64,000 nt of DNA, from the NCBI GenBank assembly GCA_029777945.1, contig JAKORG010000045.1, forward strand, positions 1 through 64,000. Direction: 5' to 3'. The DNA comes from Deltaproteobacteria bacterium. Its GTDB lineage: Bacteria > Desulfobacterota > Syntrophorhabdia > Syntrophorhabdales > Syntrophorhabdaceae. Position 1 is the stretch's first letter. The number at the start of each line of letters is the position of its first letter. Under the pieces are notes generated by a model, which was not told the DNA's origin, made no database searches, and saw only the letters and a program-made list of their open reading frames with translations. Shown piece after piece: positions 30,802-34,547 of this stretch. The position numbers and the translations under genes were made by a program.

Positions 30802-32046
30802 ATGGGTGAACAAAATTTGGAAAAAAAACGTTGGTTTCTCGCCATCTCAGGTGTCGTAATCATGCTTATCTTAGGCACTGTTTATGCATGGTCTGTATTT
30901 GTAAAGCCTATTGTGGCAATGCATGGCTGGGAAGTTAAGGTTGTGCAAAGGGTTTTCATGCTTATCATTGGTGTAATCGGTGTTTCAGCGGCCTTAGGAG
31001 GTTTGCTGGTAGACAAAAAGGGACCAAGATTTGTCGCCATAATAGGCGCGCTTTTCTATGGCGGCGGAGTTTTGCTTGGTGGTGTTGCACTGCATATGGG
31101 TAATTTTTGGTTTTTGCTTTTTGGATACGGTCTTATTGCCGGCATAGGTAATGGTTTGGCATACGTCGTACCAATTGCCACTTTAATCCGCTGGTTTCCT
31201 GATAAAAGAGGCATGATTACAGGTCTTGCTGTTATGGGTTTTGGCTTTGGTGCCTTTTTTATCGGTATGATTATCCCTGGTCTTATCAACAAAGTCGGTG
31301 TAGCAAATGCTTTTTTTATCCTTGGTGCAGTGTATCTAATATTTAATCTTCTGGCATCGTCTATCTTAAAAAACCCACCTGCTGGCTGGCTCCCCAAAGG
31401 TTTTACACCGCCTCCTACCACTGTTAGTGCAGCAGATTCTTTTAGCTGGAATGAGGCTAAAAGAACACGCCAGTGGTATATGCTATGGAGTATGCTGTTT
31501 TTGAATGTTACAGCGGGCATGGGGCTTCTATCCAAATTATCTCCTATGGCACAAGATGTTATTAAAATAGCTCAAAAGGTTGATGACCCGGCAAAACTTG
31601 CAGTGCTGGGTGGTGGTGTTCTGGCAACGGCCTCCATTTTTAATGGACTGGGACGCCTTTTCTGGGCTGCTGTTTCAGACAAAATAGGCCGCAAAGGCAC
31701 CTACATGGTTATGTTCATAACGCAGGCAATTCTTTATATCCTTCTTCCTCAAATTACAAGCGTGCTCATCTTTACAATTATTGCATGCTATCTTCTCTCC
31801 TGTTTAGGGGGTGGTTTTGCTGTTATGCCGTCTTTTACAGCAGATACATTTGGTCCTACTTATATAGGCAGGGTTTACGGTTTTCTTCTCACTGCATGGG
31901 GTGCGGCAGGTGTTGTCGGTGGTTTTGTGTTTGCCGAATTCAACAAAGAGCAGTCACTTTTCACTGCCGCGGGTTGCCTGCTTGTAGGATTTATAATCGC
32001 CCTAATGTTTAAACGGCCCAAACATGTTTCAGAATATAAAAAATAA
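30802..32046 (+). CDS. OFA-family MFS transporter (oxalate/formate antiporter type)
   Basis: The 414-residue, 12-helix major facilitator begins RWFLAISGVVIMLILGTVYAWSVFVKPI, the opening typical of OFA-family (TC 2.A.1.11) transporters. It carries GRLFWAAVSDKIGRKGTYM in the middle loop. Members exchange monocarboxylates or dicarboxylates such as oxalate, formate or lactate. GGAGG precedes the ATG, and a strong terminator follows, so it is a single-gene unit. The substrate is unassigned. Confidence 0.88.
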   Translation: MGEQNLEKKRWFLAISGVVIMLILGTVYAWSVFVKPIVAMHGWEVKVVQRVFMLIIGVIGVSAALGGLLVDKKGPRFVAIIGALFYGGGVLLGGVALHMGNFWFLLFGYGLIAGIGNGLAYVVPIATLIRWFPDKRGMITGLAVMGFGFGAFFIGMIIPGLINKVGVANAFFILGAVYLIFNLLASSILKNPPAGWLPKGFTPPPTTVSAADSFSWNEAKRTRQWYMLWSMLFLNVTAGMGLLSKLSPMAQDVIKIAQKVDDPAKLAVLGGGVLATASIFNGLGRLFWAAVSDKIGRKGTYMVMFITQAILYILLPQITSVLIFTIIACYLLSCLGGGFAVMPSFTADTFGPTYIGRVYGFLLTAWGAAGVVGGFVFAEFNKEQSLFTAAGCLLVGFIIALMFKRPKHVSEYKK

Positions 32047-32208: not shown

Positions 32209-33447
32209 TTATTCCTCATCCGGTCCTTCTTCTTCGATTTCTGGTATAGATGGTTTGGCCATTCCAAGACCGAGCATCTCTATCTCTTCTGTGGGTGCCT
32301 TTGGAATCAGGTGTCGAGGCAAAAAGGCAGCATTAGCAATAAGTGTTGGAAATACTGCGCTGGCTATTACAGCAAGAACAAGAAAGGAATATTGTTGCTG
32401 GGTTATAATGTTATGAGTAAATCCGAAAAGGGCAGAAATGGTTCCAAATGTAAGTCCTGTGGACATTAAAAGCGTATAGTACCATCTTTCATTGCGTTCG
32501 CGGCGAAATAAACTGATAAAAGGAAAAAGACCAAATATCTTTGAAAAAACTTTACCTGCAAGCAAAATGATAAAGACAACTGGACCGGACACAACAGCAG
32601 GGAGAGAGACAAGCATACCGGCGCGGAGAAAATAAAAGGGGGTCAAAAAACCAACAGTTAATGTTCGCACACGTCTAACCCAAAAAGTGTCTTTAGCAGC
32701 ACCTCCAGCCATTACCATACCTGCAATATACGCAGGTAAGACTGCTTCGCTGCCTGACCAAATTGATAGTGCACCTAATCCGAAAAGTATCAACAAAAGC
32801 CATTTGGTCCTTATTGCAGCAGTACGAAACGCATACAGATGCGTTATAAAACGTGTAGCAATTGGTAGAAAGATAATGACAATTGCTGACACTATTATAA
32901 ATATCAGTGTTTTATAGGTAAATGGTGCAAAAATAAGGCCCAGCGCAATTACCGTGCCAAGGTCATTTACAAAACATGCACCTAAAACGCCTTTACCGAA
33001 TTCTGTTTTATTAAGACCAGTTTCAAGCATTACTGCATAGACAACGGCCATTGAAGTTGTGGAAAGGGCAATTCCGCAAAGCAGGCTTGCTTGCAAAGTC
33101 CACCCTAAAACATAATATGCAATGCCAGCACAACCAAAAAATGGGGCAAAGAAACCCACCAAACCTACAACACTTACCTCCTTAAGCTTTGTTCGAAGCA
33201 CATAAGGGTCAAGTTCTGCTCCTGCCAAAAAGGTCAATAGAACAGCACCAGTGGATGCCAAAAAGCGTAACCATTCAGCATTGGAACTCAATAAATCTCC
33301 TTTACCAAGAGCGACCACTACTGTCCCTGCTACTGCCCCCACGCATATTTCAACAAGGGCTATTGAAATCCGTAAATGGTTTGCAAGGATTGTTGCACCC
33401 ACAGCCAGCGAAAGCCACAAAGCAACGATTTTAAAAGTCTCTTCCAT
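32209..33447 (-). CDS. Cation/proton antiporter (CPA family), fluoride-riboswitch controlled
   Basis: The 412-residue membrane protein has about twelve helices of the Na+/H+ exchanger (CPA2-like) fold: VALWLSLAVGATILANHLRI, LTFLAGAELDP, GIALSTTSMAVVYAV and GVLGACFVNDLGTVIALGL, where the ND motif is the ion-binding region. It has no RCK/TrkA-N domain. A fluoride riboswitch lies about 150 bp upstream in its leader, and its ribosome site AAGGAGGAGT includes AGGAGT, the exact complement of the aptamer's ACTCCT. It therefore probably acts in fluoride tolerance, exporting fluoride or balancing protons/cations; the transported ion is unproven. Confidence 0.87.
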   Translation of the reverse strand: MEETFKIVALWLSLAVGATILANHLRISIALVEICVGAVAGTVVVALGKGDLLSSNAEWLRFLASTGAVLLTFLAGAELDPYVLRTKLKEVSVVGLVGFFAPFFGCAGIAYYVLGWTLQASLLCGIALSTTSMAVVYAVMLETGLNKTEFGKGVLGACFVNDLGTVIALGLIFAPFTYKTLIFIIVSAIVIIFLPIATRFITHLYAFRTAAIRTKWLLLILFGLGALSIWSGSEAVLPAYIAGMVMAGGAAKDTFWVRRVRTLTVGFLTPFYFLRAGMLVSLPAVVSGPVVFIILLAGKVFSKIFGLFPFISLFRRERNERWYYTLLMSTGLTFGTISALFGFTHNIITQQQYSFLVLAVIASAVFPTLIANAAFLPRHLIPKAPTEEIEMLGLGMAKPSIPEIEEEGPDEE

Positions 33448-33598
33448 TAAAACTCCTCCTTAATGATTTACAAGTATTATCTTCAACGTTTGGCGAATTT
33501 CACAACTTTAACATGTTAGATACATGTTTTTATATTTGTTTTGTACGGTGGGAAATCGATAATTACGATAACCCCAGCCAAACATTAAAGTTTAAAGC

Positions 33599-33644
33599 AG
33601 GAGTCATTAGCCTTTAGGGCATTTAGAGGTGAACCCCATCACCT
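33599..33644 (-). ncRNA. Fluoride riboswitch (crcB motif)
   Basis: On the minus strand the leader begins AGGTGATGGGGTTCACCT (33644-33627), continues CTAAATGCCCTAAAGGC and ends TAATGACTCCT. This matches the crcB-motif consensus GGnGATGGnGTTCnCC...TAA...GC/GC...TAATGACTCCT. Stem 1 is AGGTGA/TCACCT; stem 2 is GCC/GGC. The pseudoknot pairs loop GGGGT with ACTCC, with one G-U. The 3' ACTCCT (33604-33599) can pair with AGGAGT in the antiporter ribosome site (33457-33452), suggesting translational control relieved by fluoride. Confidence 0.9.
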
Positions 33645-33649
33645 TTTTA

Positions 33650-33678
33650 AAATTAACATAATTTTATATTTTTTTCAA
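33650..33678 (-). promoter_or_regulatory. Candidate promoter of the fluoride riboswitch-antiporter transcript
   Basis: On the minus strand TTGAAA (33678-33673), 17 bp and TAATTT (33655-33650) predict a start at about 33643, exactly at the 5' edge of the aptamer. The -10 match is modest. Confidence 0.4.
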
Positions 33679-33785: not shown

Positions 33786-34547
33786 ATGGAAAAGGTTTTT
33801 ATAAATATCCCTTACAAAATTGTATCCAAGAACATAAAAAGGGTTTTGGAGCTCGATGTAGGCGCAGAGATTTATATAGAAAATAACCTGCTCGACGAAA
33901 TTTCAATGGATGAGGCAAAGGAACTCGGAAAAAATCTAAAAGAGTGCGGGATTGAAACTACAGTCCATGCACCTTTTATGGATTTAAGCCCTGGTGGATT
34001 CGACAGGGCAATTAAGAGGGTTTCTATTGACAGGATTAAAAAGGCAGTAGATGTGGCCAAAAACATTGATGCAAAGGCAATAGTGTGCCATCCAGGTTAT
34101 GATAAATGGCGTTTTGACGGCAATGAACAGATGTGGCTTGAAAGCAGCATAGAAACATGGAGCGAGGTATTAAGTCACGGAGGAAAAGAAATGGAGGTTC
34201 TTCTTGAGAACATTTTTGAAGAGACCCCGTCAACTTTTATTGCCCTCTTTGGTTATTTCAGAGAAAAAAATCTGTATTTCTGTTTTGATACAGGACATTT
34301 TAACCTCTTCTCAAAGGTGGATTTAGAAGAGTGGCTTTTGCCCCTAAAAGATAAGATAAGGGAAATGCACATCCACGATAATCATGGAAAATCAGACGAA
34401 CATCTCCCATTGGGAAGAGGGATTTTTCCCTTTAGAGAGCTTAAATCTTTTATCAAAAACACAACGGGTATTCGTTTTACCACAGAGTTCCATAGCGAAA
34501 AACATGCCTTAGAAAGTATTAAAAATCTAAAAGAATTTTTAAGATAA
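33786..34547 (+). CDS. Sugar phosphate isomerase/epimerase-like TIM-barrel protein (AP endonuclease 2 family)
   Basis: The 253-residue xylose isomerase-like TIM barrel keeps the metal-site landmarks in order: TTVHAPFMDLSPGG, AIVCHPGYD, LLENIFEE, FCFDTGHFNLFS, EMHIHDNHGKSDEHLPLGRG and TEFH. Members include sugar isomerases and inosose/hydroxypyruvate enzymes, so the substrate is unknown. It precedes the ADP-forming acyl-CoA synthetase genes by 63 bp but those have their own promoter. No clear ribosome site precedes the ATG. Confidence 0.78.
   Translation: MEKVFINIPYKIVSKNIKRVLELDVGAEIYIENNLLDEISMDEAKELGKNLKECGIETTVHAPFMDLSPGGFDRAIKRVSIDRIKKAVDVAKNIDAKAIVCHPGYDKWRFDGNEQMWLESSIETWSEVLSHGGKEMEVLLENIFEETPSTFIALFGYFREKNLYFCFDTGHFNLFSKVDLEEWLLPLKDKIREMHIHDNHGKSDEHLPLGRGIFPFRELKSFIKNTTGIRFTTEFHSEKHALESIKNLKEFLR

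Follow-up and report, generated by a model that had tools for sequence, protein, structure and literature searches.

Fluoride riboswitches (crcB motif, RF01734) usually precede genes for the fluoride exporters Fluc (CrcB) and CLC-F; among the gene classes associated with these riboswitches, Na+/H+ antiporters rank next in frequency after the exporters, and pH balance has been proposed as the role of the riboswitch-linked antiporters (PMC11139923). In the window analyzed here, i.e., the whole 64,000-nucleotide stretch from a member of the Syntrophorhabdaceae, a PF00999 transporter, unrelated in sequence to Fluc and CLC-F, likewise lies directly behind a fluoride aptamer. Whereas an antiporter as a target of this riboswitch is already known, what is new is the absence of Fluc alongside it: the antiporter in the window represents a defined subfamily found mostly in genomes without Fluc, an exclusion not met in the literature searched, which is not proof of novelty. 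The leader shares with the described crcB motif a complete aptamer, in which neither stem nor the pseudoknot is missing, and the placement of this aptamer at the 5' end of the leader, but differs in having a 140-nt link to the ribosome site, a 14-bp bridging stem, a competing linker element and no intrinsic terminator. The features of the locus, each with its basis, are as follows.

33650..33678 (-), promoter-like element TTGAAA (33678-33673), N17, TAATTT (33655-33650); sequence
33591..33652 (-), fluoride riboswitch aptamer RF01734; full-length cmscan match, covariation in 24 related aptamers
33643-33640 with 33631-33628 (-), aptamer P1; sequence
33637-33633 with 33604-33600 (-), aptamer pseudoknot, GGGGT with ACTCC; fits GGNGU:ACUCC
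33620-33618 with 33612-33610 (-), aptamer P2; sequence
33599..33604 (-), ACTCCT, pseudoknot 3' strand, also a candidate anti-Shine-Dalgarno; sequence, fold
33577..33590 (-), 14-bp bridging stem, 5' strand CTTTAATGTTTGGC; MFE fold, shuffles
33567..33579 (-), linker element GGCTGGGGTTATC, rival pairing partner for the aptamer strand AATGACTCCTGCTT (-13.7 kcal/mol); shuffles, relatives
33481..33494 (-), 14-bp bridging stem, 3' strand GCCAAACGTTGAAG; MFE fold, shuffles
33452..33460 (-), ribosome-binding site AGGAGGAGT, partial complement of ACTCCT; sequence, fold
32209..33447 (-), cation/proton antiporter, 412 aa, PF00999, N161-D162 motif; Pfam, alignment, structure model

Aptamer and promoter in the antiporter leader

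A first-pass annotation of this DNA had placed both crcB-motif stems and a GGGGT/ACTCC pseudoknot in a minus-strand leader at 33644-33599, had described a promoter-like TTGAAA-N17-TAATTT at its 5' edge, and had named a covariance search with RF01734 as a check. That search (cmscan) yielded a slightly longer, end-to-end match on the minus strand at 33652-33591 with 58.8 bits and an E-value of 9.7e-14, i.e., 25 bits over the curated RF01734 cut-off of 34 bits, with all helices intact, and stems, pseudoknot and promoter-like element are all present where they had been claimed. When 24 fluoride aptamers from the window genome, its family and its phylum were aligned, standard pairs made up 98.6% of the pair cells and two-sided changes were found in all three helices. 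Judged from sequence and covariation, the leader RNA is a genuine fluoride riboswitch aptamer that is predicted to bind fluoride. An accidental or decayed match is highly improbable; while the antiporter orthologue in genome G025 has a degenerate aptamer under the Rfam cut-off, so that the family may lose aptamers, the score of the match in the window, its whole helices and the conserved placement of promoter and gene led us to reject an artefact.

With regard to the promoter, TAATTT by itself is a weak match to the -10 consensus, and a generic promoter scan did not list the TTGAAA-N17-TAATTT element. The element also contains an extended -10, TG-T-TAATTT (33658-33650; TGTTAATTT), and TGnTA occurs 14-17 nt upstream of P1 in 14 of 15 leaders of the family in which a fluoride riboswitch precedes a dynamin-like GTPase gene; this common position is stronger evidence for the promoter than its low consensus score. 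Since the extended -10 ends at 33650, transcription is expected to start approximately at P1.

The antiporter, its orthologues and the known exporters

The gene behind the aptamer starts with an ATG at 33447, 143 nt past the aptamer end, and forms a single-gene unit, as its neighbors at 30802-32046 and 33786-34547 are on the opposite strand. The latter, divergent gene encodes a TIM-barrel protein that resembles the cobamide-remodelling enzyme CbiR, under the NCBIfam cut-off (74.6 vs 105 bits).

The antiporter matches PF00999 (Na_H_Exchanger) with 117 bits (cut-off 26.2; E 1.2e-33), and a structure model built from nine sequences (mean pLDDT 76) has NapA, KefC and PaNhaP as its closest PDB matches in Foldseek, consistent with the earlier designation of the protein as CPA-type. 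Because the match to the NCBIfam CPA2 model TIGR00932 is below the cut-off (103.3 vs 238.3 bits), we claim membership in the CPA superfamily only. The protein shares a predicted fold and the conserved D162, preceded by N161, with NapA, KefC and NhaP, but it is only about 20% identical to them and is without the regulatory C-terminal domain that KefC has. D162 is invariant in an alignment of nine members, and of 77 readable orthologues, 73 have ND and 4 have TD at the ion site; ND, along with STGLTFG, is a motif of the subfamily, and an N before the ion-site aspartate is typical of NhaP-type exchangers.

A scan of named genomes, mostly metagenome-assembled, identified 80 orthologues with 59-73% identity from many phyla, including Nitrospirota, Omnitrophota, Planctomycetota, KSB1, Acidobacteria, Actinomycetota and Bacteroidota; the family is represented by, e.g., L080 (Syntrophorhabdaceae; 73% identical) and L112 (Syntrophorhabdus; 69% identical). 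With our own covariance model, R2, an aptamer was detected within the 300 nt ahead of the start codon for 62 of the 80 (distances 16-241 nt), a count to be read in light of the fact that some contigs stop short of the leader. Close family orthologues in G002, G011 and G031 have aptamers above the Rfam cut-off, while the one in G025 (L042 / L080) scores 41.8 bits with model R2 and has altered pseudoknot strands (GATTGGGTTC, AACCACTT), which suggests that this aptamer may be decaying or may have changed in ligand binding. In G001, another family genome, the contig begins within the antiporter gene. The earlier proposal that the antiporter is a fluoride-response gene is supported by these many orthologues, from many phyla, with an aptamer in their leader. 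In four further loci (L126:633-694, L156:612-675, L134:514-578 and L114:1451-1521), the aptamer is located 0.9-2 kb upstream of the antiporter, possibly at the head of an operon that has another gene ahead of the antiporter. Two loci have two fluoride aptamers ahead of one antiporter gene, approximately 70 nt (L081:2217-2450) and 540 nt (L120:1793-2464) apart.

Fluc (PF02537) was found in none of the 39 family genomes, and was detected in 10 of the 14 members of the control set. The only CLC protein found in the window genome (G000) reads GSGIP/GREGP, which is not the CLC-F signature described in PMC11139923, and this signature was also absent from the CLC proteins examined in the family genomes. 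Across the phylum, Fluc was present in 6 of 37 genomes that carry the antiporter subfamily as compared to 96 of 210 without it (p 0.0009) and in none of the 12 with a close orthologue (p 0.0017), and in the Omnitrophota (the phylum of G305) in none of 6 genomes with the antiporter as compared to 67 of 139 without it (p 0.03); these p-values ignore shared ancestry, and many of the genomes are incomplete. The antiporter subfamily thus tends to exclude Fluc in two phyla. Fluc was also missing from 45 of 50 antiporter-bearing genomes, mostly from other phyla; CLC proteins were found in 22 of these, with no CLC-F signature (GREGT/V) seen among them and the motif unreadable by script in six or seven loci. 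Distant members of the antiporter subfamily were found with Fluc (crcB) genes within about 0.6-2 kb in G123, G160, G218 and G252, where the two likely form one fluoride gene cluster.

Candidate expression platforms

The full aptamer, the promoter at its edge, the target of one gene only and the recurrence of this layout among orthologues together make it quite probable that the leader works as an ON-type fluoride riboswitch for the CPA-superfamily antiporter of the lineage's fluoride response. The first-pass annotation had proposed translational control, on the grounds that the ribosome site contains AGGAGT (33457-33452), to which ACTCCT (33604-33599) is exactly complementary. The sequence confirms the complementarity, but this identity alone would be weak evidence, since CTCCT hardly varies among fluoride aptamers and AGGAG is found in any strong ribosome site. 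The proposed masking of the Shine-Dalgarno sequence (SD) would have to act across approximately 140 nt. In the MFE fold of the window leader, ACUCCU pairs with the SD and the linker is closed by a 14-bp stem (CUUUAAUGUUUGGC with GCCAAACGUUGAAG) that sets ACUCCU beside AGGAGU (z -4.1), and only 2 of 500 shuffled linkers matched the strength of this stem. By contrast, the SD effect calculated with ViennaRNA, which does not model pseudoknots and underrates the cost of long loops, was no better for the native linker (3.7 kcal/mol) than for shuffled linkers (3.5 +/- 2.1 kcal/mol), and a rival pairing of the aptamer strand is conserved. An SD switch in the window is therefore plausible rather than established.

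The rival pairing involves the linker element GGCUGGGGUUAUC, which pairs with the aptamer strand about as strongly (-13.7 kcal/mol) as the SD does (-13.4 kcal/mol) and which is also able to fold with 33558-33550 into a local hairpin, as seen in the MFE fold. Pairing as good was obtained in 2 of 500 shuffles for the window, 1 of 500 for G031 and 0 of 500 for G025, and it is kept in these two long-linker relatives with compensatory changes; in G025, aptamer strand and linker have changed together and the SD pairing has been lost.

Orthologous leaders appear to use more than one platform. Among 12 loci with linkers of at most 23 nt (16-23 nt), nine form 7-13 bp directly between the aptamer 3' strand and the SD, and the remaining three show 5 bp or pairing next to the SD; in G011, which has such a short linker, blocking the pseudoknot strands lowered the calculated cost of opening the SD from 12.7 to 1.2 kcal/mol. 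An intrinsic terminator is present in the leader of 23 loci, many of them with linkers of 95-115 nt. The long linkers of the window (143 nt), G031 (157 nt) and G025 (177 nt) belong to neither type.

A second RF01734 site in the window genome (C87:29990-30053, minus strand, 52.1 bits; loci L002, L041) is located 57 nt upstream of a gene encoding a dynamin-like GTPase (PF00350). This pair recurs in most riboswitch-bearing genera of the Syntrophorhabdaceae and, outside them, in two further families of the phylum (L014, L028), and the searched literature contained nothing relevant on dynamin with the fluoride riboswitch or crcB, which is not proof of novelty. Thirteen dynamin leaders yielded a consensus fold with CUCCU:AGGAG pairing (RNAalifold), and bridging stems exceeded those of shuffles in 13 of 14 (z -2 to -4), L024 being the exception. 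SD masking with a bridging hairpin is thus probably used in the window genome, as predicted for this dynamin leader, which would make the same arrangement credible, not proven, for the antiporter. In G031, a fluoride riboswitch, a dynamin-like GTPase gene and an enolase gene follow each other in one direction (L077:322-3456), an apparent fluoride operon; enolase is a known fluoride target.

Two readings of the antiporter leader have to be weighed. ACUCCU:AGGAGU pairing across the bridged linker may be the sole functional alternative, with the linker-element pairing incidental; this purely translational switch, which we consider a tenable but tentative reading, is favored by the ACUCCU:SD pairing in MFE as well as centroid folds, by the shared architecture of the dynamin-GTPase leaders in the same genome and family, and by the direct SD pairing in most short-linker antiporter relatives, yet the native linker masks the SD no better than shuffles do, G025 retains the linker pairing and not the SD pairing, and the SD pairing in G031 is weak. 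Alternatively, a local anti-aptamer stem (AAUGACUCC with GGGGUUAU) may alternate with the linker hairpin (about 33574-33550) and act on transcription, through termination that is cryptic or depends on Rho, or on the stability of the RNA, with the SD complementarity a by-product of the invariant CUCCU. We hold this second reading with similar reserve: the stem is as strong as the SD pairing, beats nearly all shuffles in the window, G031 and G025, and matches in position that of terminator-type orthologues (e.g., G056), but a search of the window leader for an intrinsic terminator found none, and a script likewise found none in the other two long leaders, L112 and L080. Because shuffles match the SD effect and because the linker pairing, not the SD pairing, is kept in G025, we regard the two as about equally likely; they may also be successive steps of one ON switch.

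Proposed role in the fluoride response

Under such a two-step ON switch, the aptamer 3' strand would, without fluoride, be caught first, probably by the linker element; once the whole leader has been made, the ribosome site AAGGAGGAGU, brought adjacent by the 14-bp stem, would capture the strand and antiporter expression would stay low. As fluoride rises, a Mg-F complex would lock the pseudoknot and thereby keep its 3' strand AAUGACUCCUGCUU from alternative partners.

The antiporter itself would most likely exchange Na+ or K+ against H+. In bacteria, Na+/H+ antiporters as a rule bring protons into the cell; proton import would acidify the cell and lower the pH difference that traps fluoride as a weak acid, so that, we infer, the antiporter could stand in for an exporter, which could explain how it replaces Fluc even if it moves no fluoride itself. 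The protein may export fluoride directly, but its conserved, cation-type site gives this no support. A broader proposal, that the subfamily represents a third solution to fluoride, replacing Fluc and CLC-F in the genomes that carry it by removing fluoride, whether through direct transport or through an inflow of protons that allows HF to leak out, appears rather unlikely. In the genomes without Fluc in which the pair of riboswitch and antiporter recurs, the antiporter may be the main fluoride defense.

The window genome, with no Fluc or CLC-F signature found and two genes under a predicted fluoride switch, provides a clean test case; if the antiporter alone confers fluoride resistance, the list of fluoride defense strategies would become longer. 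As one orthologous gene is found with two or more expression platforms (a terminator or direct pairing with the SD) as well as a long-linker form, it also provides a good system for studying the evolution of riboswitch expression platforms.
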